From: Acidobacteriota bacterium
Lineage (GTDB): Bacteria > Acidobacteriota > Thermoanaerobaculia > UBA5066
NCBI GenBank assembly: GCA_029781975.1
Contig: JAKOVQ010000017.1
Span: 504,074-568,073 of the forward strand
Reading direction: 5' to 3'
DNA length: 64,000 nt
Shown: one piece after another, positions 37,168 to 63,172 of the stretch
Position numbering within the stretch: the stretch's first letter is position 1
Layout of the letters: every line of letters begins with the position of its first letter
The notes under the pieces: model-generated
Database searches by the model: none
The model's input: only the letters and a program-made list of their open reading frames with translations
What the model was told of the DNA's origin: nothing
Translations under genes and position numbers: made by a program

Positions 37168-38102
37168 TGGATGCCGGCACCTTCCTCCTCGGCGACCACT
37201 CCTTCCCGTTCCTCGCGTTCTTCGGGCTGATCATCGGCGGTCTCGGCGGGTTCTTCGGGGTGGGGGGCGGCTTCCTCATGGTCCCGATGCTCAACGTGGC
37301 CTTCGGCGTCCCGTACAACATCGCGGTCGGGTCCGACCTGGGCCAGATGTGCGGGATGTCGACCGCCGCCTCGGTGCGCCACGCGCGCTTCGGCAACATC
37401 GACTTCAAGCTGGGCTTCCTGATGATCGTCGGCACCGCCACCGGGGTGGAGGCGGGGGCCCAGATCCTCGAGGCCCTGAAGCGGGTCGGGACCCTCTCGC
37501 TCTTCGGACGAGAGATCGACGTGATGACCGTCGTGATGAGCCTCGTCTACGCGGCCCTCCTCCTGTTCCTCGGGCAGGCGATGGTCCGCGAGTCGCTCCG
37601 CTCGATGCGCCGCGCCAAGGGCGAGGTCGACCTCGCGGCCGACGCTCCCGCGCCCTCGGCCGTCTCCGGGCTCCGGACCCTGAAGCTCTGGCCGATGGTG
37701 AGCCTGCCGGCGTCGGGGATCGAGGCGGTCTCGCTCTGGGTGATCCTGGGGATCGGGTTCTCGACCGGCTTCCTCTCCGGGATGCTGGGGGTGGGCGGGG
37801 GCTTCATCCGGATGCCGGCGCTCGTCTACATCCTCGGGTGCCCGACCGTCGTGGCGGTCGGGACCGACCTCTTCGAGATCATGTTCAGCTCGGGCTACGG
37901 GGTCCTGACCCACTCGTTCAAGGGGAACGTCCACCTGGTGCTCGTCCTCGCGCTCCTCGTCGGGACGACGATCGGGGCCCAGCTCGGGGCGTCCTACACG
38001 CGCCGGGCGGGCGGACCCTGGGTCCGCTTCGGCTTCGGCTGCCTCGCGTTCGTCGGGGTGATCATGGTCGCAATCAAGCTCTACGCCAAGCTCCTCCACT
38101 AG
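37167..38102 (+). CDS. TauE/SafE-family permease (cassette 1)
   Basis: This 311-residue protein has about eight membrane helices in two homologous halves. Each half starts with the family motif GGLGGFFGVGGGFLMVPML or GFLSGMLGVGGGFIRMPALV, and includes the VGTDLF and GAQLGASYTRRA signatures. The family moves sulfite, sulfoacetate or other anions and is loosely named 'sulfite exporter'; the substrate here is unknown. A soluble loop (about 150-185) joins the halves. It is followed 4 bases later by two PEP-synthase-like genes, the same companions that occur in the other cassettes. Confidence 0.88.
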   Translation: MDAGTFLLGDHSFPFLAFFGLIIGGLGGFFGVGGGFLMVPMLNVAFGVPYNIAVGSDLGQMCGMSTAASVRHARFGNIDFKLGFLMIVGTATGVEAGAQILEALKRVGTLSLFGREIDVMTVVMSLVYAALLLFLGQAMVRESLRSMRRAKGEVDLAADAPAPSAVSGLRTLKLWPMVSLPASGIEAVSLWVILGIGFSTGFLSGMLGVGGGFIRMPALVYILGCPTVVAVGTDLFEIMFSSGYGVLTHSFKGNVHLVLVLALLVGTTIGAQLGASYTRRAGGPWVRFGFGCLAFVGVIMVAIKLYAKLLH

Positions 38103-43313: not shown

Positions 43314-43691
43314 TCACGGCTTGGGGCCCTCCACCAGGCTCACGATCAGGTCGCGCAGCTGCGAGATCCTGAACGGCTTGGGGATGAAGTCCACCGCGCC
43401 GCCCCGCATCGCCTCCCGCGCCGTGTCGACGGTGGCGAAGCCCGTGATGATGACGACGTGCGTCGACGGCGCGCGCTCCTTGACGAGCCTGAGCACCTCG
43501 AGGCCGTCCGGTCCCTGCATCTTGAGGTCCGTGACGAGGACGTCGAACCTCTGCTCCATCAGCCGGTCGCTCGCCTTCCGGCTGTCGGTGAACGCCTCGA
43601 CCTCGAACCCGCTCTTCTCCAGCGCGGGCTTGAGCCTCTCGCAGACGATCGGCTCGTCGTCGAGGACGAGAACCCTGGGCTTTCCCTTCAT
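43314..43691 (-). CDS. Single-domain response regulator (CheY-like)
   Basis: This 125-residue receiver domain alone has acidic pocket DDE at 11-13, phospho-acceptor D55 in VLVTDLKMQGPDG, a conserved Thr in VVIITGFAT and the Lys in FIPKPF. No output domain follows before the stop. It is the last gene of the minus-strand cassette, 35 bases after a PEP-synthase-like gene. Its likely partner is the sensor kinase encoded at 48109-49731 in the same gene string. It may act by protein contact, for example on the PEP-synthase-like enzyme; that is inference. Confidence 0.9.
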   Translation of the reverse strand: MKGKPRVLVLDDEPIVCERLKPALEKSGFEVEAFTDSRKASDRLMEQRFDVLVTDLKMQGPDGLEVLRLVKERAPSTHVVIITGFATVDTAREAMRGGAVDFIPKPFRISQLRDLIVSLVEGPKP

Positions 43692-43726: not shown

Positions 43727-46288
43727 TCAACGGAAGGCGGCGCCGTACCTCCCCTGGTTGAAGCTCGCCGCCAGTCGCTCGACGAGCCGGTCGTCCCTCA
43801 GGAGGACGTCGAGCTGCCTCGTGAAGCCGATCAGGCGTCCGATCATCCGGAGGCGCTCGACGGCGACCTCGTAGGGCATCTTCTTGATCCTCGCGATCAC
43901 GAGGTCGGCCGACCCCTCGGTGGCGAAGTCGTGGGCCGTCAGGATCTGCCGGAGCAGGGCGGCCCGCCGGGTCCTTCGGGTCATCTCCGTCACCCCGCCC
44001 GCGAACCGGAAGTAGATGTGGTTGTCGCGTCCCGACTCCGAGAGGTAGCAGTCGACGATGTTGAAGTGGTACCCGAGCCGCAGGCTCAGGTTGAGGTAGT
44101 CGGCGGAGGCGATCGCGACGTTCATGTCGGGCCGGAGCGCCAGCTGGTCGGTGAGCGCGTGCGAGCGCGTCATGCTGGAGAGGAAGCCGTCGAGGTCCAT
44201 GTCCGCGGGCCCTCGCGCCCAGACGCCCTCGGTGGTCAGGCCCTCGATCACCGCCCGGAGCGGCCTGGAGGTGACGCGGTCCGGCGTCAGCGGGACCCCG
44301 TCCTCGCCCGGCGCCACGCCGCCTCCCAGGTCGATGACGAGGAGGTCGAGAGGCACGTTCATCTCCAGGCGGTGGACGTCCCGGCTCCCCGCCCGCGGCG
44401 TCAGCCGCTGCCCTTCCGCGAGGTCCTCCATCGCCTTCTCGTGGGCGAACCGGATGATGTCGTGATAGGTCGTGCAGCGCTGGGGGAAGAAGTCCGGCCC
44501 CCCGGGGTCCTTCAGGTTGAGGGGAGCGATCTTCTTCAGCATCCTCCGGAGGAGGCGGAACTCCGGCGCGTCCGAGTAGGTGTCGCGGCGGAGGAGCTGC
44601 TCCTCGAGGAGCTCGCTCACGCACCCCGCGTAGACGACGTTCTCCTCCGCGTCGACCGTCACCTCCGCGCCGTCCGTGAGGATCCGCGTGGCGTCCCCCG
44701 CGTCCATGATGGCGGGGACGCGGAACTCCCGGGCGATCGCCGCCAGGTGCCCCGTGGTCGTCCCGATGTCGGTGACGAGCGCCGCGGCCCGGGAGACGGC
44801 CGCCGCCAGGCGCGGGGAGGAGAGCCTCGCGACGAGGACGCGGCCGGGCTCGATCCCGAGGGCGTCCTCCAGGCCGGTCACCGTCTTCACGACGCCCGCG
44901 CCCACGCCCCGGCAGGCCACGACGCCACGGTCCCGCATGAGGACCGGGGCGCGGCTCGTCGCCTCGGCCGCGTCGCGGCGGAGCGCCGGGGAGGCGTCGA
45001 GCCGGAGCGGCCTCGCCTGGAGGACGAAGAGCTCCCCGTGGCCGTCGATGGCCCACTCGACCTCCTGGGCGCTCTTCATGTACCTCTCGACGCGGAGCAC
45101 GGTCGCGGCCAGCCGGGCGAGGTCGTCGTCCGACACCGACGGCCGGTCCCGCTCGCCCTCGGGCACCTCCGTCCGCTCCACCCCCCCGCGGCGGCCCATC
45201 ACGTCCATCACCCTCTTGTCGGCCACGTGGCGGGAGACCACGGGGTGCGGCGCCTCCCGCGACAGCTCGAACCGGTCGACCGGGACGTCGCCTCCGACGA
45301 CGGCGCTCCCCAGCCCTCGCGTCGCGGCGACCTGGAGGACCCGTCTCGACGGGTCGGTCGGGTCGACCGTGTGGACGACCCCGCTCGCGACGGCCGGGAC
45401 CATCGTCAGGCAGGCGACCGCCATCAGCGCGTCCGCCGGGTCGAGCCCGGCGCTCACGCGGTACCGGACGACCCCGGGCGAGAAGAGGCTCGCGACGACC
45501 TCCCGGTACGCCTCGAGGACGTCCGGCGGATCGACGCCGAGACGGGTCGCGTACTGGCCCGCGAAGCTGACCTCGCCGTCCTCGCCCAGGGCGCTGCTCC
45601 GGACGGCGAGCCGGGCGCCGGGCGCCGCCCGGCCGAGCCCGCGCACGGCGGCCTGGACGGCGCGAGCGACCTCCCGGGGGACCGGGGTCGCCTTCACCCG
45701 GGCCTGGAGCTCGGCCGAGAGGGCGCCCGGGTCCGCGGCCTCGCCCGCCCGGCCCTGCAGGCGCCATCGCTCGGCCACGGCGGGGACGCCCGCCCGCTCG
45801 AGGTAGAGACGACACGCGGCCGCGGTGACCGCGAAGCCCTCGGGGACGCGGCAGCAGGCGTGCTTCTGGAGGGAGCCGAGGCGCGCCATCTTCTCCCCCA
45901 CGGCGTCCGCCAGCTCCTCCCCGATGCCGTCGAGCGGGACCACGACCTCCCCCTCGGGGGCGAACGGGCGCGACTCCAGCGTGGCCCGGACCGAGGCGCC
46001 CACGCGCTCCACCGCTTCGACGAGCTCCGGGTAGCGGTCCCCCGTGATCGCGTTGAGGTCGAAGACGACCGACCGGGCCGCGGCATCGAGCTCCTCGGCC
46101 ATCGCGGCCAGCGAGTTCCGGTCGAAGACGTACTCGCCCCCGAGCATCTCGCCCGCCTTCGCGATCAGCTCGAGCACGTGGTTGTTCCCGTCGACGAGCC
46201 CCCTCAGCCCCTCGATCCTCCGGCGGACCGCCGCGACCGAGTCCTCCTCCCTCCGCTCCGGCCTCGCCCTCCTCCAGAAGCCGGCCAC
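43727..46288 (-). CDS. PEP-synthase-like phosphotransferase (copy 3)
   Basis: This 853-residue protein starts at GTG, 8 bases after the TIGR02186 gene. The N-terminal helical segment (VRRRIEGLRGLVDGNNHVLELIAKAGEM) is followed by the ATP-binding domain with GEKMARLGSLQK, AVRSSALGEDGEVSFAGQYAT, ASGVVHTVDPTDPS and EVEWAIDGHGELFVLQARPL. The phosphohistidine domain carries TTGHLAAIAREFRVP. The C-terminal domain with unknown fold has TYHDIIRFAHEKAME, VIDLGGGVAPGEDG, YLNLSLRLGYHFNIVDCYLSE and HIYFRFAGG. The PEP-binding barrel is missing, as in the other copies. It belongs to the cassette kinase-permease-TIGR02186-this gene-receiver. Confidence 0.8.
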   Translation of the reverse strand: MAGFWRRARPERREEDSVAAVRRRIEGLRGLVDGNNHVLELIAKAGEMLGGEYVFDRNSLAAMAEELDAAARSVVFDLNAITGDRYPELVEAVERVGASVRATLESRPFAPEGEVVVPLDGIGEELADAVGEKMARLGSLQKHACCRVPEGFAVTAAACRLYLERAGVPAVAERWRLQGRAGEAADPGALSAELQARVKATPVPREVARAVQAAVRGLGRAAPGARLAVRSSALGEDGEVSFAGQYATRLGVDPPDVLEAYREVVASLFSPGVVRYRVSAGLDPADALMAVACLTMVPAVASGVVHTVDPTDPSRRVLQVAATRGLGSAVVGGDVPVDRFELSREAPHPVVSRHVADKRVMDVMGRRGGVERTEVPEGERDRPSVSDDDLARLAATVLRVERYMKSAQEVEWAIDGHGELFVLQARPLRLDASPALRRDAAEATSRAPVLMRDRGVVACRGVGAGVVKTVTGLEDALGIEPGRVLVARLSSPRLAAAVSRAAALVTDIGTTTGHLAAIAREFRVPAIMDAGDATRILTDGAEVTVDAEENVVYAGCVSELLEEQLLRRDTYSDAPEFRLLRRMLKKIAPLNLKDPGGPDFFPQRCTTYHDIIRFAHEKAMEDLAEGQRLTPRAGSRDVHRLEMNVPLDLLVIDLGGGVAPGEDGVPLTPDRVTSRPLRAVIEGLTTEGVWARGPADMDLDGFLSSMTRSHALTDQLALRPDMNVAIASADYLNLSLRLGYHFNIVDCYLSESGRDNHIYFRFAGGVTEMTRRTRRAALLRQILTAHDFATEGSADLVIARIKKMPYEVAVERLRMIGRLIGFTRQLDVLLRDDRLVERLAASFNQGRYGAAFR

Positions 46289-46296
46289 GCTCCCGC

Positions 46297-47175
46297 CTAG
46301 TGGGCGCCTCGCGCGCCGCGGCCGAAGAGCGCGCCCGTCGAAAGGCCCGCGGCGATCGCCACCACGACGGCCACGATGCCATACAGGAGGCCCCGCTCTC
46401 GAGCCGTCCGCGAGACGAAGGCCGCGACGCCCGTCTGGCGGATCACCGCGGTCGCCTCCGCGACGAGGGCCCCCTCCCCCTGCCGGAACGAGAAGAGCGC
46501 GATCCGGTAGCCCCCGGGCGGCGTCCGGGCCGGCAGGAAGAGGTCCGTCGAGGCGTCGAGACGGTCCCGCTCGCCCCGCCCCAGGAGGACGGAGCCCTCC
46601 ACCAGGTCGAACAGCCCCTCGCGGCGCTTGAGCCTGACGAGCTCGGGGAACGCCTCCCGCTGGTCGCGCGAGGGATCTCGCGGAAGGGCCCTCGCCTCGA
46701 CGCTCCCGAAGCCCACGCCCAGGCGCTCGAGGAGCTCCGGAGGGCCGAGCCGCGCGAGGGGGACGGACGTGCAGAGCACGTAGACGGAAGGGACCCGCTC
46801 GAAGACGACGTCGGCGACGTTCATCCACAGGACGCCCCAGACCCGCCCCCTCCGCTTCAGCTTCAGCCTGGTCTCCTGTCCCGTGCAGAGGATGGCGGCG
46901 TCGGAGCCGGCCGGGACGGCTCCCCGGACGTGCAGCGTCGCGCCGCTGAAGAGGAGGTCGACCCCGACCTCCTCGGGGTAGACCTCGAGCCGCTCCGGCC
47001 CGAGCGGGTCCGCGCCCGCCGGAGCGGACGGGACTGGAGCCGCCGGGGCCGTCGTGGCCCTCGCGGCCGCCGGGACGAGGAGCAGGAGGAGGAGGGCGAG
47101 CGGCAGGCAGGCCGGCCCCCGGGTCGCGCCCGGCGCCCGCCTCGCCGCGCCTTCCCTCCGCGCGTGAGCCGCCAT
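46297..47175 (-). CDS. TIGR02186-type membrane-anchored periplasmic protein (cassette 2)
   Basis: This 292-residue protein has a signal peptide (about 22-42), a periplasmic beta-rich region beginning LEVYPEEVGVDLLFSGATLHVRGAVP, and one C-terminal membrane helix (LLYGIVAVVVAIAAGLSTGALFG). This order, and phrases like FSGATLHVRG...DAAILCTG and VPSVYVLCTS, are those of the TIGR02186 family, which from memory is often encoded beside TauE/SafE permeases in alphaproteobacteria. Function is unknown. Four bases separate it from the permease gene upstream. It can be seen as a periplasmic partner of the permease. Confidence 0.72.
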   Translation of the reverse strand: MAAHARREGAARRAPGATRGPACLPLALLLLLLVPAAARATTAPAAPVPSAPAGADPLGPERLEVYPEEVGVDLLFSGATLHVRGAVPAGSDAAILCTGQETRLKLKRRGRVWGVLWMNVADVVFERVPSVYVLCTSVPLARLGPPELLERLGVGFGSVEARALPRDPSRDQREAFPELVRLKRREGLFDLVEGSVLLGRGERDRLDASTDLFLPARTPPGGYRIALFSFRQGEGALVAEATAVIRQTGVAAFVSRTARERGLLYGIVAVVVAIAAGLSTGALFGRGARGAH

Positions 47176-47179
47176 GGGC

Positions 47180-48112
47180 TCAGTGCCCTCCCTCGTAGCT
47201 GACGAGGACGTCCGGCCTCAGGAGCAGGCCCAGGAGCATCTTCACCATCACGGCGAGGACGATGATCGACATCAGGATCTTGAGCTGGTCGGCCCGCAGC
47301 TTCCTGCTGGCCCGCGCCCCGAGCTGCGCGCCGATGACCGAGCCGAGGAGGAGGACGAGGACGAGGACGACGTCGACCGTGTGGTTGACCGCCGACTGGA
47401 GGATCGTCACGTTGATGCAGGTGGCGAGGATCTGGAAGAGGCTGGTCCCCACGACGACGTGCATCGGCATCCTCAGGAGGTACACCATCACCGGGACCAT
47501 GATGAAGCCTCCCCCCACGCCCATCACCGCGGCGAGGGCGCCGACGACGACGCCGAAGAAGAGCGGGACCAGGACGGAGAAGGTGACGTTCGAGCGGCCG
47601 AAGCGGACCTTCAGGGGGAGCGACTCGACGAGGCGGGCGAACGGCGAGGGACGAAGGTCCCCCTCCCGCGCGTCGCCCCCGCCCCGGCTCTTCCGGAGGC
47701 CCTGGAGGCTCTCGACGAACATGTAGCCCCCGATCCCGCCGAGCATGACGACGTAGGTCGCGGAGATCACGAAGTTCGCCTCGCCCGCACGCCGCAGGAG
47801 CTTGATCAGGACGACGCCCAGCGAGCCGCCCAGGAGGCCGCCCGCCAGGAGGAGCCCCCCCATCTTGAAGTCCACGGAGCCGGCCCGCGCGTGCGCGATC
47901 GTGCCCGATGCCGACGCCGCCACGATCTGGTTGGAGTCCGACGCGGCGGCGATCGTCCCCGGGATGCCGATCATCATCAGGAGGGGGGTCATGAGGAACC
48001 CGCCCCCGACGCCGAAGAGCCCGGAGAGGAACCCGACGATCCCCCCCAGGCCGAAGAGGAGGAAGACGTTGACCGCGTTGCCCGCGACCGGCAGGTAGAC
48101 GGAGAAGCTCAT
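47180..48112 (-). CDS. TauE/SafE-family permease (cassette 2)
   Basis: This 310-residue protein has the two-half TauE fold. The glycine motifs are VGFLSGLFGVGGGFLMTPLL and VVGALAAVMGVGGGFIMVPVMV, with HVVVGTSLFQIL and VIGAQLGARASRKLRADQLK after them. A charged loop (about 130-165) connects the halves. Its ATG overlaps the TGA of the sensor kinase gene (ATGA), so both are translated together. The anion carried is unknown. Confidence 0.88.
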   Translation of the reverse strand: MSFSVYLPVAGNAVNVFLLFGLGGIVGFLSGLFGVGGGFLMTPLLMMIGIPGTIAAASDSNQIVAASASGTIAHARAGSVDFKMGGLLLAGGLLGGSLGVVLIKLLRRAGEANFVISATYVVMLGGIGGYMFVESLQGLRKSRGGGDAREGDLRPSPFARLVESLPLKVRFGRSNVTFSVLVPLFFGVVVGALAAVMGVGGGFIMVPVMVYLLRMPMHVVVGTSLFQILATCINVTILQSAVNHTVDVVLVLVLLLGSVIGAQLGARASRKLRADQLKILMSIIVLAVMVKMLLGLLLRPDVLVSYEGGH

Positions 48113-52186: not shown

Positions 52187-53011
52187 TCAGTGGCCGCTCC
52201 GTCCGAACAGGGTCCCCGCGGTCCACCCCGCCGCGATGGCGACGAGGACCGTGAACGCGCCGTACAGGGCCGGGCGCCGGTCCGCGAGCCGGGTCAGCCA
52301 TTCCACGATCCCGGTCTTGCGGACGAAGAGCTCGTTGGTCTTGACGCCCAGGACCTCGCCGTCCGAGAGGAAGGAGGTCGTGATCCTGTAGCGCCCCTCG
52401 GGCGCGCCGGCCGGGAGCTCGAAGGCATGGTAGTAGATGCCCTGCGGGCTCAGCCGGATGGCGTTCGTCCTCACGCCGTAGAGGCCGCGAGACTCCTCCA
52501 GCCTCCAGAAGCCCTCGAGCACCCGCTCCGCCTCCCCCTTCCGGAGCGGCCCCGAGAGGCTCGTGAGCCGCGCCCTCGCCGCGATCTCCGGGGAGCCCGC
52601 GGCGAGGTCCAGCGGCGCGAGCAGGCGGTTGCAGGCCTCGAGGAGCCCCGCGTGCCGGCACGCCTGGAGGCCGTTGCAGACCGGACAGCTCACGTTGACG
52701 AGGTAGAGGCCCGGGACCTGCCCCAGGCCGTACTGCCGCACGCCGAGCCAGAAGAGCGCCACCCGTCCCTTCTCCATCAGGCGGACCGTACCGGAGGGCG
52801 GCCCTTCGATCACCGCGAGGACCCGGCGCGTCCCCTCGGGAGCCTTCCCGTACAGGAAGATGCTCCGCCCGGAGAACGCGTAGGAGACCTCCACGCGGCG
52901 CACGTCCAGCCCGGTGACGGACACCGGCCCGGAGACCGCCGCCGGCGCGCCCGCCGCAGCCGCGAGGAGGAGGAGGACGAGGGGAAGCGCCCGGCCCAGG
53001 CCCCCGCGCAC
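52187..53011 (-). CDS. TIGR02186-type membrane-anchored periplasmic protein (cassette 3)
   Basis: This 274-residue protein has a signal peptide, a beta-rich domain (VEVSYAFSGRSIFLYGKAPEGTRRVLAVIEGP...) and a C-terminal helix (ALYGAFTVLVAIAAGWTAGTLFG). It is homologous in order and length to the 46297 product and to the N-terminal part of the 54934 product. It differs by a four-cysteine cluster, CPVCNGLQAC then C nine residues on, absent from the other two. The GTG start lies one base after the stop of the cytochrome-permease fusion, so the two are co-translated. Confidence 0.7.
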   Translation of the reverse strand: MRGGLGRALPLVLLLLAAAAGAPAAVSGPVSVTGLDVRRVEVSYAFSGRSIFLYGKAPEGTRRVLAVIEGPPSGTVRLMEKGRVALFWLGVRQYGLGQVPGLYLVNVSCPVCNGLQACRHAGLLEACNRLLAPLDLAAGSPEIAARARLTSLSGPLRKGEAERVLEGFWRLEESRGLYGVRTNAIRLSPQGIYYHAFELPAGAPEGRYRITTSFLSDGEVLGVKTNELFVRKTGIVEWLTRLADRRPALYGAFTVLVAIAAGWTAGTLFGRSGH

Positions 53012-53012
53012 C

Positions 53013-54707
53013 TCAATGCCCTCCGCCCGACTTGGCGAAGTCGATCAGGTGCGCCGGCGGCATGACGAGCTGGACGAGGAGGATGCCCATGACGACGAGG
53101 ACGATCCCGGCCAGGAAGACCCGGATCTGCTCCCCGCGCAGGTGGCGGCTCGCCGCCACCCCGAACTGGGCCCCGATGACCGAGCCGGCGAAGAGCGCCA
53201 CGGCCAGCATCACGTCCACCGTGTGGTTCGTGATCGCCTGCTGGAGCGCGACGTTCGACGAGGTGAGGACGATCTGGAACAGGTCGGTTCCGACCGCCAC
53301 GCGGGTGGGGATCCCGATGATGTAGATCATCGTCGGGAGCATGATGAAGCCCCCCCCGACTCCCAGGAACGCGGCGAGGACGCCGACCAGGAAGCCCGCG
53401 CCGACGGGGAGGAGGGCGGAGGCCCGGAGCCCCGAGCGGGGGAACTCGAGCTGGAGCGGGAGCCGCGCGAAGAAGAGCGTGAGCGCGCCCCGGGCGGGCT
53501 CGGCCCCGCCGGACCCGCCCCGCCACGCCCGGATCCCTTCGCGCAGCATCGTGAGGCCGATGAAGCCGAGGACGAGGACGTAGACGAGCTTGAGGAAGAA
53601 GTCGAAGTTCCCCAGGTTGCGCAGGACGCGCACGAGCTGGACCCCCGCGACGCCGCCCGCCCAGCCGCCTCCCACGATGAGGACGCCCATCTTGAAGTCC
53701 ACGTTCCCGAGGCGGGAGTGGGAAAGGGCGCCCGACGTGGCTCCCGCGGTGATCTGGGCGGCGTCGGTCGCGGCCGCCACCGCGGCGGGGATGCCGATGA
53801 AGATGAGGAGCGGCGTCATCAGGAAGCCGCCCCCCACGCCGAACAGGCCCGACAAGAAGCCCACGAGGGAGCCCAGCCCCGCGATGAGGAGCGGGTTGAG
53901 GGCCGTGCCGGCCACGGGGAAGTAGATCCGCAGCCTCTCGAGGAACCCCTCGGCCTTCGGCGTCCCCTCCTCGTGCCGCGCGCTCCGGATCATGGCGGCG
54001 GTCACCTCCCCGTGGCAGGCGTGGCAGGTCTGCTCCATCCGGGACGGGTTCACGCTCGACCGGACGTCGCTCGCCGGGAGGACCCGGTGCGCGTCGTGGC
54101 AGGAGGGACAGGTGGCCACGTCGACGATGCCGTGCGCGAGCGCCACCCCGTGCATCGTCCCCTCGTACCCCGGGACGCAGGCGGGAGGGAGGTCGGTGCG
54201 CCGGAGGACCTCCGGGTCGTCGTGGCAGTTCGCGCACGTCGTCGAGACGCGTTCCACCGAGGTCGGGGCGGCCTCCGAGCGCGCCGGGAGGATGACGTGG
54301 CTCCCGTGACACGAGACGCAGGTGGGCGCCAGGGCGTCCCCCGCGGCGACGGCGCGTCCGTGGGTGCTCGACCGGTACGCCTCCAGCTGCACCTCGTGGC
54401 AGCGCCCGCACGTCGCCGAGACCCTCACGCGGCTCACGGGAGAGGCGAGCGTCCCCGCCCCGGCGGGCGCGCCCGGCCCGTGGCAGCTCTCGCACGGCAG
54501 GCCCGTGTGGACCCCGCCGAGGGGCGCCTTCGCGCCGCGGGGGAAGAGGGGCTCCCGAGTCCCCTCCGCAAGGGCGATGGAGGCCGTCGCCACGAGGGCC
54601 GCGAGCAGGGCGACGAAGGGAGCCGCGACCGGCCGGGGCCGTGGCCTCGCCCCGCCCGGCCGGCGCAGGCGTCGCACCTTCGTCACCCGATCCCGGCGGC
54701 ACTGCAC
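53013..54707 (-). CDS. Six-haem cytochrome c fused to a TauE/SafE permease
   Basis: This 564-residue fusion has an N-terminal signal/anchor (about 27-48) and a periplasmic part (50-260). That part carries six CxxCH haem-c sites: CESCH, CGRCH, CVSCH, CANCH, CPSCH and CHACH, with extra His residues for axial ligands. From ~270 to the end is a full two-half TauE/SafE permease (GFLSGLFGVGGGFLMTPLL, GVLAAFLGVGGGFIMLPTMI, VGTDLFQIVL, VIGAQFGVAASRHLRGEQ). I chose the GTG at 54707 because GGAGG lies 5 bases upstream. A GTG at 54731 lacks such a site. The fusion suggests electron transfer tied to transport of, or reaction with, a redox-active anion. The substrate is not known. Confidence 0.88.
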   Translation of the reverse strand: MQCRRDRVTKVRRLRRPGGARPRPRPVAAPFVALLAALVATASIALAEGTREPLFPRGAKAPLGGVHTGLPCESCHGPGAPAGAGTLASPVSRVRVSATCGRCHEVQLEAYRSSTHGRAVAAGDALAPTCVSCHGSHVILPARSEAAPTSVERVSTTCANCHDDPEVLRRTDLPPACVPGYEGTMHGVALAHGIVDVATCPSCHDAHRVLPASDVRSSVNPSRMEQTCHACHGEVTAAMIRSARHEEGTPKAEGFLERLRIYFPVAGTALNPLLIAGLGSLVGFLSGLFGVGGGFLMTPLLIFIGIPAAVAAATDAAQITAGATSGALSHSRLGNVDFKMGVLIVGGGWAGGVAGVQLVRVLRNLGNFDFFLKLVYVLVLGFIGLTMLREGIRAWRGGSGGAEPARGALTLFFARLPLQLEFPRSGLRASALLPVGAGFLVGVLAAFLGVGGGFIMLPTMIYIIGIPTRVAVGTDLFQIVLTSSNVALQQAITNHTVDVMLAVALFAGSVIGAQFGVAASRHLRGEQIRVFLAGIVLVVMGILLVQLVMPPAHLIDFAKSGGGH

Positions 54708-54752
54708 GGTCGCCTCCGGAGCAATTCCCACGCCCGAATCCGTAAGCGACTG

Positions 54753-54933: not shown

Positions 54934-57900
54934 TCACGACCGCGTCGGGGAGGAGGCCGCGAGCGCGCGCTCCTCGGCCTGGAGGAAGGCGTCGACGTAC
55001 GTGGAGACCCGCGACTCGGAGGTCATCCACATGTCGAGCTGGGCGGCGAAGCGGAGCAGGTGGCCCACCGTCCGGAGCGCCTCCTGGCCGCTCTCGACGT
55101 CGACCCCCCGGAGCATCGCGTTGAGGAGGTCCGACCTCACCTGGGCCGTGAAGCCGCGGATCCGGAGGACCTGGGCCATGAACTCCCCCCGCAGCGTCCG
55201 CTGCCACGGGGCGGCGCCGCCGCCGCGGAGCCGGACGCTGACGTGGTTGGCGTTCTGGTTCTCCGAGAGGAACGCGTCGACGATGGCGAAGTGGTAGGCC
55301 TGCCGCGAGTTCAGGTTGAGGTAGCAGTCGGTGACGCAGGCGTAGTTCGGCTGGCCCAGGGACCTCGTGGCGTCCTCCCGCATGGTGCTCAGCATCACCG
55401 AGGCGAAGCCGCCGAGGACCGGCGCCCCCAGCCGGACGCTCTCCAGGCCCTCGTCCCCGAGCCCCCTCCAGAGCCCCTGGAACGGGACGCACACGACGTC
55501 CTCGGGCTTCACGCCCTTCCTGGTCACCGCCGTCCCGGGGCGGATCCCGCCCCCCAGGTCGATCAGGTGCAGGAAGACGTTCGGGGGCGCGTCGAGCCGG
55601 ACGACCCCGCCGACCTTCGCGCTCCTCAGGGAGTCGCCGATCTCGAACATCGCCTGGATGGCCGCCTCGTGGGCGAAGCGGATGACGTCGTGCAGCGACT
55701 GGCACGCCCAGGACCCGATGAAGGTCGACCCCGAGAGCTTCGTCAGCTTCCCCGAGAGGACGGGCGGGAGCCCGAGCGACCGCCTTCCCAGGAGCGTCAC
55801 CGGCTGGCTCCCCCTGAGCTCGGGCCAGAGGGCCCCGTCGTAGACCCGGTGCGCCGCCGCGTCGAGGCTGACGACATCTCCGGGCTTCAACGCCGCGAGG
55901 GCCCCCTCGACGCCGAACAGGCTCGGCACGCGGAACTCGCGAAGGATCGACGCCGCGTGCCCCAGGACGCTCCCCCGCTCCACGATCACCCCGCAGACGC
56001 GCGGGAGGAGCCGGACGCAGTCGGCGAGCAGCCGGGGAGCCACGAGGATCGAGCCGGCCGGCAGGAGCTCCTCGTCCTCCCTGGTCCGCGTCACGTGCAC
56101 GGGGCCGACGGCCCGTCCCGGCCACACCTCGTCGCCCCCGCGGAGGCGGACGACGGCGCCCCGCGGCTCCTCGCGGGACTCCCTGTCCGGCCTCTCCGTC
56201 CGGAGGGGCCTGGCCTGGAGGAAGTAGACCCCTCCCGTCTCGTCCACGGCCCACTCGATGTCCTGGGGCCTGCCGAAGTAGCGCTCCACGCCCAGCGCCT
56301 GCGCCGCCAGGTGCTGGATCTCCGGGTCCGCGACGGCCGGCTGCACGCTCGCCTCGCCGGTCACCCCCTCCTGGACCACGCCGCCGCCGACGGAGCTCGC
56401 CACGCGTACCCCCTTGCGCGCGACGCGGCGCTCGAGGACCGCGTGCGGCGCCCGCCGCGAGACGACGAACGTGTCCACGTTGGCGGTCCCGGCCGACGCC
56501 TCGCTCCCCAGCCCGCGCACGGCGGTCAGGAGGATCACGTTCGCCTTCGCGTCGTCGGGGCGCCGCGTGAACAGGACCCCCGAGGCGCGGGCCCTGACCA
56601 TCCGCTGCATCAGGACGGCCATCGGGCTGTCGACCTCGGCGATCCCCCAGGCCCGCCGGTAGAAGAAGGCGCGCGGGGAGAAGCGGCTTCGCACGACGCT
56701 CCTCCAGGCCTCGACGACCCCCGCTCGCGCCACGTTGAGGACGCTGTCGAACTGCCCGGCGAACGAGACCTCGCTGTCCTCCCCCGTGGCGCTCGACCGG
56801 ATGGCCACGCCGTCGAGCGGGTCCTCGCACAGCGCGTCGTAGGCGCTCTCGATGGCCCGCGCCACCGCCGCCGGGACGGTCGCCTCGTCGATCATCCCCT
56901 GGGCCAGCGCGCACCGCTGCTCGAGGTCCTTCGGCGCGTCGAGCCGGGCCGGGGACAGCACGGTCCGGAGCTTGCTCGCCAGGTCGCCGCTCTCGAGGAA
57001 CAGCCGGTACGCCTCCGTCGTGAGGACCACGGACCGCGGGACGCCGAGCCCGAGGTCCCCGTCCAGCCGGGCGAGGTTCGCCGCCTTCCCTCCCGCCATC
57101 GGGGCGGTCTTCGTCGTGATCGCGGACAGGGGGAGGACGAGCCTCGGGTCCTCCGACTCGGGAGCCTTCGCGAGGTACTCCGACACGTCCCGCCGGATGC
57201 CGGTGACCACGTTCGCGAGGTCGAAGTACCGGTCGCCGCACAGCTCGTTCAGGACGTGGATCAGCTCCGTCGTCCCGTCGAACAGGGCGCGGATCCCGAT
57301 CCGCACCCGGGGGTGGCGGTAGGAGGTCCACGACGACTCCTCCTCGAGGTCCGAAAGGCTCGCAAGCAGCTCGTTGTTGATGGCGAGGAGCCTGCGGAAC
57401 AGCGTGTACCTCTCGCGCATCCGGGCGGCCTCGCTCGTCGAGGCCGGTCTCGAGATCCCCGGCAGGAGAGGGTCCGCGACGGCCCTCAGGACCCTGCCGA
57501 CCCGCTCCGGCGGGGGCTCGGCGGCCACCACGCGCGGCTCTCCGGCGATCACCATCGGGTCCCACGCGATCGGCGCGCGGGACGGGCCCCGGACCCTCCC
57601 GAGGAGGCCGATGAGGAGCCCCGTCGCCAGGCAGACCGCCAGGGCGAGGAAGCCGTACGAGAGGGACCGCTCGTGCGCGAGGGTGTGGAGGGTGAGGGGC
57701 AGCCCGACGTGAGCGAGCGTGACGCGGGCGCTCCGGGACCCCGCGAGCTCGCCCCGGGTCGTCTCGAAGACCGACACCTCCAGGTCGCCCGGCGGAGCGG
57801 CCGACGTCACGGGGACGTCCACCGAGAAGCGGCGCCGGCCGTCCCGCTCGTCGCCGAGGACGACGCTCCCGGGCGAGATGCGATAGAGCCCCTCCCGCTG

Positions 57901-58350
57901 CTTCAGCCTAACGAAGTGCTCCACCAGGAGCCGCGCGTCGGGCCGCGGCCGCTCCAGCCGGATGCCCGCCCCGAGCGTGTCGAACCCGAGCTCGAGCCGC
58001 TCGCGCAGCGCCGGGGACGCGGCGGACGCGAGGGCCGCGGAGGTGGAGACGTCGTACAGGGTGGGGGCGTTCCGGATCGTGACGTGCTCGACGCCGCCCC
58101 AGATGAGGCCTCCGATCCGGGCCCGCCGGTTGAAGAGCTCGTCGACCCGCGGGCCCGTGACCCTGACGACGATCTGCGAGCCCTCGTCCGCCCACCCCTG
58201 CACGTGGATGGTCGCGCCGTGGTAGAAGGTCCCGGCCGCGATCACGTCCGGCCGGACGAGGACCGAGAGCTCCGCGCGGCCCGGGGCGGAGGCCCCGAGG
58301 AGGCCGAGGGCGAGGAGCGCCGGGACCGGGAGGGGGGGACGGACCCTCAC
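54934..58350 (-). CDS. TIGR02186 protein fused to PEP-synthase-like phosphotransferase (copy 4)
   Basis: This is a 1138-residue fusion starting at GTG. Residues 1-255 match the TIGR02186 type: signal peptide, VLVRPDVIAAGTFYHGATIHVQGWADEGSQIVVRVTG, then membrane helix YGFLALAVCLATGLLIGLLG. After a short linker comes the helical segment RYTLFRRLLAINNELLASLSDLEEE. The ATP-binding domain follows (GGKAANLARL, AIRSSATGEDSEVSFAGQFDSVLNV, DIEWAVDETGGVYFLQARPL). The phosphohistidine domain has SVLGHAASILREFRVP, and the C-terminal domain has SLHDVIRFAHEAAI, LIDLGGGIRPGT and YHFAIVDAFLSENQNANHVSVRLRGGGAA. The membrane helix places the first part in the periplasm and the kinase-like part in the cytoplasm. 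Confidence 0.85.
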   Translation of the reverse strand: MRVRPPLPVPALLALGLLGASAPGRAELSVLVRPDVIAAGTFYHGATIHVQGWADEGSQIVVRVTGPRVDELFNRRARIGGLIWGGVEHVTIRNAPTLYDVSTSAALASAASPALRERLELGFDTLGAGIRLERPRPDARLLVEHFVRLKQREGLYRISPGSVVLGDERDGRRRFSVDVPVTSAAPPGDLEVSVFETTRGELAGSRSARVTLAHVGLPLTLHTLAHERSLSYGFLALAVCLATGLLIGLLGRVRGPSRAPIAWDPMVIAGEPRVVAAEPPPERVGRVLRAVADPLLPGISRPASTSEAARMRERYTLFRRLLAINNELLASLSDLEEESSWTSYRHPRVRIGIRALFDGTTELIHVLNELCGDRYFDLANVVTGIRRDVSEYLAKAPESEDPRLVLPLSAITTKTAPMAGGKAANLARLDGDLGLGVPRSVVLTTEAYRLFLESGDLASKLRTVLSPARLDAPKDLEQRCALAQGMIDEATVPAAVARAIESAYDALCEDPLDGVAIRSSATGEDSEVSFAGQFDSVLNVARAGVVEAWRSVVRSRFSPRAFFYRRAWGIAEVDSPMAVLMQRMVRARASGVLFTRRPDDAKANVILLTAVRGLGSEASAGTANVDTFVVSRRAPHAVLERRVARKGVRVASSVGGGVVQEGVTGEASVQPAVADPEIQHLAAQALGVERYFGRPQDIEWAVDETGGVYFLQARPLRTERPDRESREEPRGAVVRLRGGDEVWPGRAVGPVHVTRTREDEELLPAGSILVAPRLLADCVRLLPRVCGVIVERGSVLGHAASILREFRVPSLFGVEGALAALKPGDVVSLDAAAHRVYDGALWPELRGSQPVTLLGRRSLGLPPVLSGKLTKLSGSTFIGSWACQSLHDVIRFAHEAAIQAMFEIGDSLRSAKVGGVVRLDAPPNVFLHLIDLGGGIRPGTAVTRKGVKPEDVVCVPFQGLWRGLGDEGLESVRLGAPVLGGFASVMLSTMREDATRSLGQPNYACVTDCYLNLNSRQAYHFAIVDAFLSENQNANHVSVRLRGGGAAPWQRTLRGEFMAQVLRIRGFTAQVRSDLLNAMLRGVDVESGQEALRTVGHLLRFAAQLDMWMTSESRVSTYVDAFLQAEERALAASSPTRS

Positions 58351-58357
58351 GACCGCC

Positions 58358-59275
58358 TCACTGCCCCGCCAGGTGGGAGAGGTAGAGGTCGGGCTCCCGG
58401 AAGAGCTCGACGCCGATCGTCCCCGCGACGGCCAGGACGATCAGGGCCAGGAGGATCTTCAGCTGGTCCGCGCGCAGCCGGCGGCCCAGGACGGTTCCGG
58501 CCATCGCCCCCGCGGTCGAGCCGAGCGCGAGGAGCACCGCGAGGATGAAGTCGACCGTGTGGTTGCTTTCCGCCTGGAGCACCGTCACGAGCATGCAGGT
58601 CAGGAGGATCTGGAACAGGCTCGTCCCGGCGACGACGTGCATCCTCATCCGGAGCACGTAGAGCATGAGGGGGACCATGATGAAGCCCCCGCCCACCCCC
58701 ATCATCGCCGCCAGGACGCCGCCCAGCAGGCCCATCCCCAGGGGGAGGAGGGCGGAGACCTCGATGTCGGACTTCTCGAAGCGCACGCGTCCGGGCAGGC
58801 CGTCGATCCACCGGCGGCGCGGGATCGGGTCGAACCGCCGCTCGGCCATGTAGGCGCCCCGGCGCCAGGTCCGGAGCGCCTCGAGGAGCATGTAGCCCCC
58901 GACGCCCCCCAGCAGCACGACGTAGAGGCAGCGGATCACGACGTTGGCCGGCCCGAACCGGTTCAGCCAGAGGAGGAGGCGGACCCCGAGGACGCTCCCC
59001 ACCGAGCCCCCCGCGAAGAGGACGAACCCCATCCGGTAGTCGACGGTGCCCGCCCGCGAGTGGGCGAGGGTCCCGGCCGTCGACGCCGCCACGAACGGAG
59101 CGGCTCCCGACCCCGCCGCCACCATCGGCGGGATCCCGAGGAACATCAGGAAGGGCGTCAGGAGGAACCCGCCGCCGACCCCGAAGAGGCCCGACAGGAG
59201 CCCGACGATCGCGCCGATGCCAATCACGAGCGGGATCTGGACGCTCATCTGGGCGATCGGGAGGAACACCCACAT
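58358..59275 (-). CDS. TauE/SafE-family permease (cassette 4)
   Basis: This 305-residue protein has about eight helices in two halves. The motifs are VGLLSGLFGVGGGFLLTPFL and GGVLAAMMGVGGGFIMVPLML, then HVVAGTSLFQILLTC and a charged central loop (about 145-180). It is most similar by eye to the 47180 copy, sharing RADQLKILL near the C-terminus. It lies 7 bases before the TIGR02186/PEP-synthase-like fusion and 50 bases after the sigma-54 activator gene. The substrate is unknown. Confidence 0.88.
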   Translation of the reverse strand: MWVFLPIAQMSVQIPLVIGIGAIVGLLSGLFGVGGGFLLTPFLMFLGIPPMVAAGSGAAPFVAASTAGTLAHSRAGTVDYRMGFVLFAGGSVGSVLGVRLLLWLNRFGPANVVIRCLYVVLLGGVGGYMLLEALRTWRRGAYMAERRFDPIPRRRWIDGLPGRVRFEKSDIEVSALLPLGMGLLGGVLAAMMGVGGGFIMVPLMLYVLRMRMHVVAGTSLFQILLTCMLVTVLQAESNHTVDFILAVLLALGSTAGAMAGTVLGRRLRADQLKILLALIVLAVAGTIGVELFREPDLYLSHLAGQ

Positions 59276-59325: not shown

Positions 59326-60702
59326 TCAGTCCGTGCCGAGCCCGTAGTGCTTGGTCTTCTCCCAGAGGGTCTTCCGGCTCACCCCCAGGAGCTGCGCCGC
59401 CTCGCTCCGCCGCCCGTCGGTGGCGGCCAGGGCCGCGCGGATCGTCTCGACCTCCGCCCGCTCGACCGCTTCCTGCAGGGTCATGGTCTGGCGGGAGGGC
59501 GCCCGGCGGGGCGCCCGGCTGGCGGCCACGAGGCCCGGCGGGACGTCCTCGATCCCGATCTTGGCGCGCCGGCAGAAGAGCGCCGCCCTCTCCACCACGT
59601 TGCGCAGCTCCCGGACGTTCCCCGGCCAGGCGTAGGCGTCGAAGGCCTCGAGCACCTCGTCCGAGAAGCCCTCGATCGGCTTGTTCCGGTCCTTCGTGAA
59701 CTCCGAGAGGAAGGCGCCGGCCAGGATCGGGATGTCCTCGCGCCGCTCGCGGAGCGCCGGGAGGTGGATCGTCACCGTGTTGATGCGGAAGAAGAGGTCC
59801 TCCCGGAAGCTCCCCTCGCCCATCTCCTCCTCGAGCGGCCTCAGGGAGGCCGAGACGATCCGGACGTCCACCTCGATGGTCCTCTGGGAGCCGAGGCGCT
59901 CGATCTGCCGCTCCTGGAGGACCCGCAGGAGCTTCACCTGGAACGAGAGCGGCAGGTCGCCGATCTCGTCCAGGAAGAGGGTCCCGCCCGACGCCGCCTC
60001 GAACCGCCCGATGCGCCGCTCCGTGGCGCCCGTGAACGCCCCCTTCTCGTAGCCGAAGAGCTCGGACTCCAGGAGCGACTCCGGGAGCGACGCGCAGCTC
60101 ACCCGGATGTAGGGACGCGCGCGGCGGCGCGAGTTGAAGTGGACGGCCGAGGCCACGAGCTCCTTGCCCGTCCCGCTCTCGCCCTGCACGAGGACGTTGG
60201 CGTCGGAGTCGGCCACGACCTTGATGAGCTCGAAGACCTCCTGCATCGCCTTGCCCTTGCCGATGATGCTGCCGAACGAGAAGCGCTTCTCGAGCTGCTC
60301 CTGCAGGCGGATGTTCTGCTCCTTGAGCTGGCGGAACGAGCAGACGTTGTTCAGCCTCACCACGAGCTGGACGATGGAGAAGGGCTTGGTGATGAAGTCC
60401 GCCGCGCCCTGCCTCATCGCCTCGACGGCGGACTCGATCGTCCCGTGCGCCGTGATGATGACCACCGTCGTGCTGGGCTCGAGCTCCTTCACCTGCTGCA
60501 GGAGCTCGAGGCCGTCGACGTGGGGCATCATCAGGTCCGTGAGGACGAGGTCGTGGCGGTGACGCTCGAAGAGCGTCATCGCCTTCGCGCCGTCCTCGAC
60601 GACGTCGACGGTCCATCCTTCCTTCCGGAGGGCGTCGGCGATGGTGATGCGCAGGAGCGGCTCGTCCTCCGCCACGAGGAGCCTCCGGCCGCAGATCGTC
60701 AT
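59326..60702 (-). CDS. NtrC-family sigma-54-dependent response regulator (second in window)
   Basis: This 458-residue protein has a receiver with D56 in [13 protein letters not shown], an AAA+ domain with Walker A GESGTGKE at 174-181, GAFTGA at 221-226 and GTLFLDEIG, and a Fis-type helix-turn-helix ([26 protein letters not shown]). All motifs for sigma-54 activation are present. Its ATG overlaps the kinase gene's TGA (ATGA), so the two form a two-component pair. Targets are probably the neighbouring permease cassettes, but no convincing -24/-12 element was found in front of them. Confidence 0.93.
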
Positions 60703-62180
60703 GACGGCGCCTCTTCCTTCGTCCCCGGATGGTCGAGCGGGAGGACGACCCGGAACGTGGTCCCCTTCCCTTCCTCGCTGTCCAGGCCGATCCGGCCCCC
60801 GTGGGCCGCGACGATGTTGTAGCTCACCGCCAGGCCGAGCCCCGTCCCCTGGCCCACCTCGCGCGTCGAGAAGAAGGGGTCGAAGATCCGCTCCCGGATC
60901 GCCTCCGGGACGCCGACGCCCGTGTCCGACACCTCCACCACGGCCTCCCGCTCCTCGACCCGCGTCCGGAGCGTCAGGACGCCCCCGTGGGGCATCGCCT
61001 GGATGGCGTTGAGGACGAGATTGAGGAAGAGCTGGTCCATCTGGAATCGGTCCGCGAGGACCGTCGGCTCGACCTCCGCGAGGTCGAAGACGACCTCCAC
61101 GTGGCCCCTCAGGACCTGGTACTGGACGAGCTCGGCGACGTGCCGCAGGGCGTGGTTGAGGGACGTGGGCTCGAGCCGGACCGGGGTCGTCCTGGCGAGG
61201 TCGAGGAGGTCCAGGACCGTGTGCTCGATCCGCTTGATGCCGTCCTCGACGAGCCCCAGGTAGCGGTCTCGCGTCTCCGCGTCCCCGGGGTCCTTCCGGA
61301 TGGTCTCGAGGCAGGTCAGGATGCCGGCGAGCGGGTTGTTCACCTCGTGGGCGATCCCCGCGGCCAGCGTCCCGAGGGAGGCCATCTTCTCGGTGTGCGC
61401 CAGCTGGGCCCGGCGCGCCGAGTCGCGCTCCCGCGCGTGTCCCAGCTCGACCATCATCCGATTGAAGGCGGCGGCCAGCTCCCCCACCTCGTCCCAGCGC
61501 CTCACGTCGGCGCGCGCGCTCAGGTCGCCCCTCCCGGCCTGCCTCATCGTGTTGTGCAGGCTGAGGATCGGCCGGATCAGCGTCTCGACGTAGACGGCCG
61601 TCAGGATGGAGTTCCCCAGGAGGAGGACGAGCGCCACGAGGCCGGCCCGCCTGGCGACGGCCCGGACCTCCTCCTCGACGGGGGCGAGGGAGACGCCCAG
61701 CACGAGGGAGCCCCAGTACCGCGTGGAGATCGCCAGCGGCGTGCGGAACTCGAGGACGCGCTCCCCCTCCCGGAACGTGGTCGCCTCCACCGCGGTCGGC
61801 TCGCCGACGGCGCTCCGGTCGAGGGCCCTCTCGAAGCGCTTCCCGATGAGCGAGACGAGGTTCGAGTGGGTGACCGTCCCACCGGCGTCCGTCACGATCA
61901 CGTAGAGCGCCAGCCCCCTGTTGCGGTCGAGGATCCCGGTGATGTAGTCGTCGATCAGGCCGTCCTCGTTCACCAGGCCGAGGTCCTCGTAGAGGAAGGC
62001 GTCGGTGAGCGGCACCGCGCTGGTCTCCGCGAGGCTCATCCCGCGGCTGCGGATCTCGTCGTAGCGGGTCTGGCGCCCCCGGACGACCGTGAGGACGGTG
62101 ACGATCCCCATCGTGACGACGATGAGGGTGTTCGAGTAGAGGAAGAACTTCGCGCGCAGGCCCAGCCGCAGCACGTTCAC
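60699..62180 (-). CDS. Membrane sensor histidine kinase (NtrB/ZraS-like)
   Basis: This 493-residue protein starts at GTG overlapping the PhnD-like gene's TGA (GTGA). It has membrane helices at about 12-32 and 180-200 with a ~145-residue periplasmic Cache-like sensor between. A HAMP domain follows, then HisKA with H278 in AAGIAHEVNNPLAGI, and HATPase with LNLVLNAIQAMPHGG, DTGVGVP and GQGTGLGLAV. The overlap chain binding protein-kinase-regulator suggests that the periplasmic PhnD-like protein presents a ligand to this kinase. Confidence 0.93.
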   Translation of the reverse strand: MNVLRLGLRAKFFLYSNTLIVVTMGIVTVLTVVRGRQTRYDEIRSRGMSLAETSAVPLTDAFLYEDLGLVNEDGLIDDYITGILDRNRGLALYVIVTDAGGTVTHSNLVSLIGKRFERALDRSAVGEPTAVEATTFREGERVLEFRTPLAISTRYWGSLVLGVSLAPVEEEVRAVARRAGLVALVLLLGNSILTAVYVETLIRPILSLHNTMRQAGRGDLSARADVRRWDEVGELAAAFNRMMVELGHARERDSARRAQLAHTEKMASLGTLAAGIAHEVNNPLAGILTCLETIRKDPGDAETRDRYLGLVEDGIKRIEHTVLDLLDLARTTPVRLEPTSLNHALRHVAELVQYQVLRGHVEVVFDLAEVEPTVLADRFQMDQLFLNLVLNAIQAMPHGGVLTLRTRVEEREAVVEVSDTGVGVPEAIRERIFDPFFSTREVGQGTGLGLAVSYNIVAAHGGRIGLDSEEGKGTTFRVVLPLDHPGTKEEAPS

Positions 62181-63172
62181 GGCCTCCCCGGGCCGCAGCC
62201 GAAGGTCGGCGCCGGGTCGGAAAGCCCCGCGGGGCCGAAGAGGCGGAGGGCGAGCCGGCGGATCGGGGCGTAGTCCTCGTCCGACGCCGCGGCGAAGCCC
62301 CCGGCGAGCTCCTCGTCCCAGCCCCGGATCGCCGCGGCCGCCTGCGCGTCCCTGCGCGGGAGCGAGACGAGGACGCGGAACAGCTCCTCCCGCAGCGACG
62401 GGGGCGCGGAGGGGGAGACGACGAGGGGGGGGTTGGGGATCTCCTCGGAACGCGCGAGGACGCGCAGCGCCTGCCCGAGGTACCTCCGGGCCACGATGTC
62501 GCGGACGCCGCAGGCGTCCGCCTCTCCCAGCAGGACGGCGCGGACCGCCCCTTCGTAGCGGGAGTAGTAGCGGCAGTCGAGGTCGGTCCCGGGGCGCAGG
62601 CCCGCCGCCTCGAGCATCTCGCGCGGGACGAGCTGCGAGGCCGTCGACATCGAGACCCCGAACGCGAAGCGCCGTCCGGCGAGCTGCTGCAGGCTCTGCA
62701 CGTCGCTGTCGATCCGGACGACGATGAGGCTGCGGTACGTCGGGCTCCCTCCGGTGGTGAGCTTCACCACCGGGAGCGCGCCGCAGGCCGCGTGCGCCCG
62801 GACGTAGGCGAAGGGGCTGAAGACGCCGAGGGCCGTCGCCCCCGAGCAGACGTCCTCGGCCAGCCGCTCGAAGGAGGGGCTGATCACGAGCTCCCAGGGG
62901 CTTCCCGTCGCGGCCGACAGGTAGTCCACGAGAGGCTGGTACTTCAGGTACATGATCCGCGGGCTGTAGACGCCCACCGCCCCGAACCGCAGGACCCGGG
63001 AGGGGGCCGCCGCGTCCGTCGCGTCCGGCGCGGCCGTTCCCGGCGCCGCCGCCAGCCCTGACGCCAGGACGGGCCCGGCCGCGAGGACGAGCGCGAGGAG
63101 GGAGCGGGACACGGTCCGGCCCCGGTCCGGCCGGACCCCGAAGGCCCTAGTCGCAGCCGCGACGCGGGCCAT
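62177..63172 (-). CDS. PhnD-type periplasmic substrate-binding protein
   Basis: This 331-residue secreted protein (signal peptide to about residue 48) matches the phosphate/phosphite/phosphonate-binding (PhnD, PBP type 2) family. Visible parts are LRFGAVGVYSPRIMYLKYQPLVDYLSAATG, FERLAEDVCSGATALGVFSPFAYVRA and the hinge pattern TYRSLIVVRIDSDVQSLQQLAGRRFAFG...STASQLVPREML. There is no ABC permease or ATPase gene beside it. Together with the overlapping kinase gene it is more likely a sensory binding protein than a transporter part. The ATG at 63172 overlaps the upstream gene by 26 bases; a GTG at 63112 is an alternative start. Confidence 0.85.
   Translation of the reverse strand: MARVAAATRAFGVRPDRGRTVSRSLLALVLAAGPVLASGLAAAPGTAAPDATDAAAPSRVLRFGAVGVYSPRIMYLKYQPLVDYLSAATGSPWELVISPSFERLAEDVCSGATALGVFSPFAYVRAHAACGALPVVKLTTGGSPTYRSLIVVRIDSDVQSLQQLAGRRFAFGVSMSTASQLVPREMLEAAGLRPGTDLDCRYYSRYEGAVRAVLLGEADACGVRDIVARRYLGQALRVLARSEEIPNPPLVVSPSAPPSLREELFRVLVSLPRRDAQAAAAIRGWDEELAGGFAAASDEDYAPIRRLALRLFGPAGLSDPAPTFGCGPGRP

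Follow-up and report, generated by a model that had tools for sequence, protein, structure and literature searches.

A window of 64,000 nucleotides (nt) from an Acidobacteriota bacterium (assembly GCA_029781975.1, contig JAKOVQ010000017.1, positions 504,074 to 568,073) contains an open reading frame (ORF) in which two proteins usually encoded by separate genes, a membrane protein of the PF09608 (Alph_Pro_TM) family and an enzyme related to phosphoenolpyruvate (PEP) synthase and pyruvate phosphate dikinase (PPDK), are read as one polypeptide. Is this fusion genuine, and what does it say about the two families? The ORF, at 54934-58350 on the reverse strand, begins with GTG and encodes 1138 amino acids with no internal stop codon. 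The fusion is present in the sequence and unique in our sample. In the reading preferred here, to which we assign a probability of about one-half, it is genuine and lineage specific, arose from a conserved TauE - PF09608 - PPDK-like operon and yields a catalytically intact dikinase tethered to the inner membrane beside a TauE permease, with transport coupled to phosphorylation; we infer the topology, the chemistry, and the coupling.

A sequence-only reading of the locus had proposed that two families share one polypeptide here and are separate genes in a second cassette of the window (cassette 2). Both proposals were confirmed: the ORF is exact, its Pfam domains lie above the curated cutoffs, and the cassette 2 genes (46297-47175 and 43727-~46288) are in different frames. 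PF09608 was matched at residues 32-250 of the fusion (E = 1.1e-36; 127 bits against a gathering cutoff of 24.5 bits), PPDK_N at residues 418-724 (E = 8.5e-74), and PEP-utilizers at residues 764-832 (E = 4e-14). No Pfam family scored above cutoff in the final ~270 residues, the C-terminal PEP/pyruvate barrel had no Pfam match past residue 832, and profile matches to solved PEP synthase and PPDK structures stop at the His domain. The description of a PEP-synthase-like enzyme thus holds for the ATP-grasp and His domains but not for the pyruvate/PEP domain, which is absent. The earlier label TIGR02186 had to be replaced by PF09608: against an NCBIfam cutoff of 255.25 bits the fusion scored 51.3 bits, and the window's other two PF09608 copies scored 75 and 69 bits. 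As the fusion falls so far under this cutoff, PF09608 family is the safe name. Scores were also below the cutoffs of the PEP synthase equivalogs (TIGR01418, 273 versus 740 bits; NF005057, 275 versus 598 bits) and of the rifampin phosphotransferase (RPH) equivalog (186 versus 999 bits), and the His domain of the fusion is central. The polypeptide lacks a receiver domain and so does not belong to the receiver-linked class.

In the AlphaFold model of the PF09608 part (predicted local distance difference test [pLDDT] score, 91), an Ig-like beta sandwich is followed by a transmembrane helix at residues 229-253, the C-terminal end of this part, and hydropathy places the transmembrane segment at 233-251. 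Given this agreement, the earlier claim that the two parts are joined through a membrane helix holds. A linker of ~50 residues (254-305) follows. The model of residues 296-1138 (pLDDT, 89) consists of N-terminal helices, an ATP-grasp domain, a swivel domain, and an alpha/beta C-terminal domain. Its ATP-grasp and swivel domains aligned with those of RPH, PEP synthase, HpeI, and PPDK (Z of 25-39 among the best matches), and as these two domains fill the matches listed, the comparison says little on the C-terminal domain. Structure searches with the PF09608 model returned common Ig-like matches only (best Z, 9.4; none below 1e-3 in Foldseek), and no function was therefore drawn from them.

The residues of the dikinase active site are retained. 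K422, R518, E699, Q712, R714, and H798 are kept in at least 97% of 90 homologues, with H798 present in all 90, and in our own motif alignment K422, R518, and H798 match Lys22, Arg117, and His825 of RPH. In that enzyme Lys22 and Arg117 are needed for rifampin resistance and His825 is the phosphate carrier (PMC4844700). Among the same 90 homologues H887, D888, R891, H894, and H1020 of the C-terminal domain are invariant, and these polar residues resemble what may be a second active site.

To determine whether the join could have arisen by a frameshift or misassembly, a codon-usage log-likelihood test was run in 15-codon intervals over residues 151-425, with 13 other genes of the window as reference. 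The fused frame was favored in every interval across the join, linker included, with a third-position G+C content (GC3) of 0.87-1.00, and this unbroken coding signal argues against a frameshift or chimeric misjoin at the junction; for residues 251-265 the +1 frame was worse by 9.9 log units. A +1-frame TGA overlapping ATG266 was considered as a frameshift clue and is unremarkable, because every such TGA overlaps an NTG codon. The codon test is blind to a single-base substitution. Codon TGG263, three codons upstream of ATG266, is one base change from TGA or TAG and is probably a former stop codon. It lies ~414 nt from PPDK_N, compared with 333-578 nt from the PF09608 stop to PPDK_N in separate pairs, and four separate PF09608/PPDK-like pairs were found in one frame with a single intervening stop (L060, TAG; L181, TAA; L206, TGA; L207, TAA). 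Because these distances fit and such pairs exist, loss of a single stop between in-frame neighbors is most simply the origin of the fusion, which shows the event to be possible rather than to have occurred. It follows that the chief risk of artifact is a consensus error at the TGG263 base.

Such an error, or a rare variant, would mean that the genes are separate in the living genome and that a stop before ATG266 was turned into TGG263. The position of the codon, its single-base distance from TGA or TAG, the spacing to PPDK_N typical of separate pairs, the four pairs already in frame, and the absence of the fusion from every other genome searched would all fit this. With a stop at 263, however, the PF09608 part would end in RAPIA, without the terminal His seen in 67 of 71 PF09608 proteins followed by a PPDK-like gene, and the TauE partner of the fusion lacks a terminal His as well. 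Moreover, an assembled consensus seldom carries substitution errors, and codon usage disfavors a misjoin or frameshift, although it leaves a substitution untouched; we consider this explanation very unlikely. A further alternative accepts the fused ORF and holds that an internal start at M311 or M266 may also yield free PPDK-like enzyme, so that the tether is partial. M311 has GAGG 8 nt upstream and coincides with the start of N-terminal conservation in separate homologues, but motifs resembling Shine-Dalgarno sequences are frequent in GC-rich DNA, and an internal start seems unlikely.

Searches for further fusions used the whole protein as query in 60 relatives and PF09608 in overlapping genome sets from the phylum (297 genomes), the class (149), Desulfobacterota (345), Myxococcota (313), and some other groups. 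From the GTDB genomes, 77 named loci were scanned and 77 distinct PF09608 genes were examined for architecture, and 40 further loci were added. The PF09608-PPDK_N fusion occurred in 1 of the 77 genes, that of the window itself, and later PF09608 searches gave no match in an open frame long enough for a fusion. A 1114-amino-acid open frame in G051:C67 was rejected as a second fusion since a TAG stop lies between the genes, and large open frames around PF09608 in G090, G077, G160, G033, and others proved to be overlapping frames rather than fusions. No protein in plasmid records covered 80% of the fusion. PF09608 and the C-terminal domain were absent from 13 other genomes of the window's family, which suggests that this lineage gained the cassettes. 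The sequence-only reading had treated the fusion as Rosetta stone evidence that the two families cooperate, and had named as counterevidence the absence of homologous fusions from relatives together with an assembly join at about 57550. Homologous fusions were indeed absent from the relatives searched, so that the Rosetta stone argument rests on one sequence and is not supported as put, while the join is disfavored by codon usage. Since the fusion depends on TGG263, the term direct evidence was also too strong; cooperation of the families is supported instead by operon adjacency and co-occurrence.

These fusion-independent data support the assignment of PF09608 and the PPDK-like family to one membrane system. 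In 77 loci, the gene immediately upstream of PF09608 was TauE in 75 and the gene immediately downstream was PPDK-like in 32; many of these loci end too early for the latter to be seen. In the 40 further loci, all from Desulfobacterota, 38 PF09608 matches had a PPDK-like gene next. Genome-wide counts of the PPDK-like family relied on a profile restricted to the C-terminal domain. In Desulfobacterota the family was present in 60/61 PF09608-positive versus 66/284 PF09608-negative genomes (Fisher test, 2.6e-30), and in the window's class in 9/10 positive versus 6/139 negative genomes, in tests that ignore shared ancestry. Genomes of these groups that have PF09608 thus rarely lack the PPDK-like family, whereas the family often occurs in the absence of PF09608. 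The rhizobial TauE-PF09608 pair has no adjoining PPDK-like gene. Nothing on this system was found in the literature on TIGR02186, on Alph_Pro_TM, or on TauE with PEP synthase or cytidylate kinase.

A second link between the genes is a histidine at the C terminus, in tails such as GGH, GAH, and KGGHH. Of the PF09608 proteins, 60 of 76 in the first set end in His, and the 67 of 71 followed by a PPDK-like gene come from both sets. A terminal His is present in 51 of 73 TauE proteins whose gene precedes PF09608, versus 4 of 49 other TauE proteins in the same loci, and is missing from both proteins of the rhizobial pairs without PPDK. Because the residues before the final His vary, the tail is not merely an embedded ribosome-binding site. 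The enzyme part of the fusion is joined on at the point where the PF09608 tail would finish, and AGQ replaces the usual GGH at the end of the partner TauE. One speculation, which we rate as quite unlikely, is that TauE, PF09608, and the PPDK-like enzyme together make up a membrane phosphotransfer system, ATP driven and so far undescribed, with the PF09608 C-terminal His serving the dikinase as a docking or phosphoryl-acceptor site; the covalent link of the fusion would then make the tail needless, hence its loss and that of the TauE tail. The tails of TauE and PF09608 may face opposite sides of the membrane, and therefore no single shared role can be claimed for both. The pattern offers a simple mutational test in relatives with separate genes.

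The topology that the earlier reading had drawn from the fusion is less certain than it implied. A signal-like N terminus, the transmembrane helix, an arginine-rich stretch after it, and the enzyme's need for ATP lead us to infer that the PF09608 domain is exported and the enzyme cytoplasmic, but separate PF09608 proteins have positive charges on both sides of the helix and are equivocal. The preferred reading would thus place an exported Ig-like domain, one transmembrane helix, a flexible linker, and a cytoplasmic phosphotransferase in one inner membrane protein. The ATP-grasp domain would shift phosphate from ATP to H798, with AMP as product, and the swivel domain would ferry it to the C-terminal domain, where it would be passed on to an acceptor held there. 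As the characterized enzymes with this engine phosphorylate small molecules and the operon encodes a permease, the likeliest acceptor would be the anion that TauE handles or a compound derived from it, which would couple transport to ATP-driven phosphorylation. The nearby two-component genes may control the system.

Comparison with known systems separates what is familiar in this protein from what is not. Like PEP synthase (PpsA) and PPDK, the fusion has an ATP-grasp domain followed by a phosphohistidine swivel domain, in the same order and with matching catalytic residues, but it lacks their PEP/pyruvate barrel and has another C-terminal domain, extra N-terminal helices, a transmembrane helix, and an exported domain. 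The same ATP-grasp/His engine is found in RPH and the two-component dikinase HpeHI. In RPH, however, the His domain is last, the acceptor domain differs, and there is no membrane anchor. Exchange of the acceptor domain for other substrates is established in this superfamily by RPH (PMC4844700) and HpeHI (PMC12167813). Enzyme I of the phosphotransferase system has a homologous swivel domain with an active His, whereas the fusion lacks its PEP-binding barrel and its donor is likely ATP, through the ATP-grasp domain. Alphaproteobacterial TauE/SafE - TIGR02186 pairs, such as that on Sinorhizobium meliloti pSymB, share the two-gene order but have no adjacent PPDK-like gene and no C-terminal His on either protein. 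To our knowledge PEP-synthase-type dikinases are soluble, and no described member is membrane anchored with an exported domain; none was found in the literature searched. The engine is already known, and the anchoring and the C-terminal domain are new relative to anything found.

Several points weigh against the preferred reading. As far as the sequence tells, the fusion hangs on one codon, TGG263, and a second fusion was absent among ~120 PF09608 genes in five phyla. At 1.58 changes per column, the PPDK-like part of the fusion sits on a long branch and may therefore have drifted in function. The 66 Desulfobacterota genomes with the PPDK-like family and without PF09608 indicate that the core job of this family need not involve PF09608. 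Receiver genes that adjoin PPDK-like genes, one of them fused in G280, would suit a protein acceptor or a regulator equally. This last point bears on another explanation, in which PPDK-like proteins are signaling phosphodonors that pass phosphate from H798 to a receiver or other protein, as enzyme I does to HPr, with PF09608-TauE sensing or gating. Receiver and histidine kinase genes adjoin many PPDK-like genes (a receiver within 4.5 kb in 17/46), the G280 protein carries a fused receiver in which the usual acidic residues are present, enzyme I has a similar swivel domain, and PPDK-like genes occur in several copies per genome. A receiver could equally regulate the enzyme, however; the C-terminal domain is rich in invariant polar residues, as a substrate site would be; and the fusion has no attached receiver, the nearest one having a sigma-54 output. 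We hold the phosphodonor role to be possible but doubtful. The PPDK-like portion of the fused protein could instead be a dead scaffold. This would fit its long branch and the Leu found two positions ahead of the catalytic His, where Thr is common; in PEP synthase this Thr is regulatory (PMC12167813). Ala occupies this position in 28 of 90 homologues, so the Thr is not required, and every catalytic residue is retained in the fusion, which makes a dead enzyme highly improbable. If the membrane-tethered dikinase is as proposed, a widespread set of undescribed genes would link an anion permease with histidine phosphotransfer driven by ATP in both Acidobacteriota and Desulfobacterota, and the fusion provides a single polypeptide for testing the topology, the phosphorylation of H798, and what the permease contributes.

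Table 1. Features of the fusion ORF and of neighboring genes, in positions of the window
Feature	Coordinates	Strand	Basis
Fusion ORF: PF09608, transmembrane helix, PPDK_N, PEP-utilizers, Pfam-less C-terminal domain	54934..58350	-	ORF and Pfam
Putative Sec signal peptide, residues 1-26	58273..58350	-	Read from sequence; outside folded domain (AlphaFold2)
Alph_Pro_TM (PF09608) domain, residues 32-250, Ig-like beta sandwich	57601..58257	-	Pfam, AlphaFold
Transmembrane helix, residues 229-253	57592..57666	-	AlphaFold, hydropathy
Linker, residues 254-305	57436..57591	-	Codon usage, AlphaFold
TGG codon 263, probable former stop codon	57562..57564	-	Inferred by distance comparison with separate pairs
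Helical N-terminal region of PPDK-like part, residues 306-395	57166..57435	-	AlphaFold
ATP-grasp PPDK_N, residues 418-724, with K422, R518, E699, Q712, R714	56179..57099	-	Pfam, conservation, structure
Phosphohistidine swivel domain PEP-utilizers, residues 764-832	55855..56061	-	Pfam, structure
Catalytic histidine codon H798	55957..55959	-	His in 90/90 homologues
C-terminal domain, ~868-1138, conserved H887, D888, R891, H894, H1020, R1054	54937..55749	-	Homologue conservation
TauE/SafE permease of fusion cassette, ends AGQ	58358..59275	-	
Sigma-54-type response regulator upstream of fusion cassette	59326..60702	-	
Histidine kinase with sCache_3_2 and HAMP	60699..62180	-	
PhnD-like periplasmic binding protein; closest solved relatives include PtxB and ArrX	62177..63172	-	
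Cassette 2 PF09608 protein, separate, with terminal His	46297..47175	-	
Separate PPDK-like protein of cassette 2, PPDK_N and PEP-utilizers (GTG start at 46288 assumed)	43727..46288	-	
Response regulator receiver downstream of cassette 2 PPDK-like gene	43314..43691	-	
TauE of cassette 2, ends GGH	47180..48112	-	
Third PF09608 gene, PPDK-like gene not adjacent	52187..53011	-	
TauE with N-terminal multiheme cytochrome c domain, partner of third PF09608 gene	53013..54731	-	
Stand-alone PPDK-like gene, same C-terminal domain	40683..43247	+	
Stand-alone PPDK-like gene, same C-terminal domain, adjoins TauE gene at 36993-38102	38107..40683	+	

The binding protein gene (62177-63172) and the kinase and regulator genes (59326-62180), which lie in the same operon as the fusion, resemble oxyanion three-component sensors. 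The signal may be an oxyanion, since the solved proteins closest to the binding protein include PtxB and ArrX. Pairs like that of the cytochrome c TauE (53013-54731) and its PF09608 partner were also seen in L069 and L070. The tandem stand-alone PPDK-like genes by a TauE gene at 38107-43247 have tandem homologues in L136 and L128.

Cytidylate-kinase-like, receiver, and kinase genes recur around PPDK-like genes. In G280 (L076:4852-7956, reverse strand), one reading frame encodes a PPDK-like protein followed by a receiver domain that has the acidic residues expected of it, and another receiver gene lies immediately downstream. L076 is the only locus in which a receiver is on the same polypeptide as a PPDK-like protein. 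Several TauE - PF09608 - PPDK-like clusters (L071, L072, L075, L076, L078, and L084) also contain Cytidylate_kin2 (PF13189) genes, often with a second, long copy downstream.

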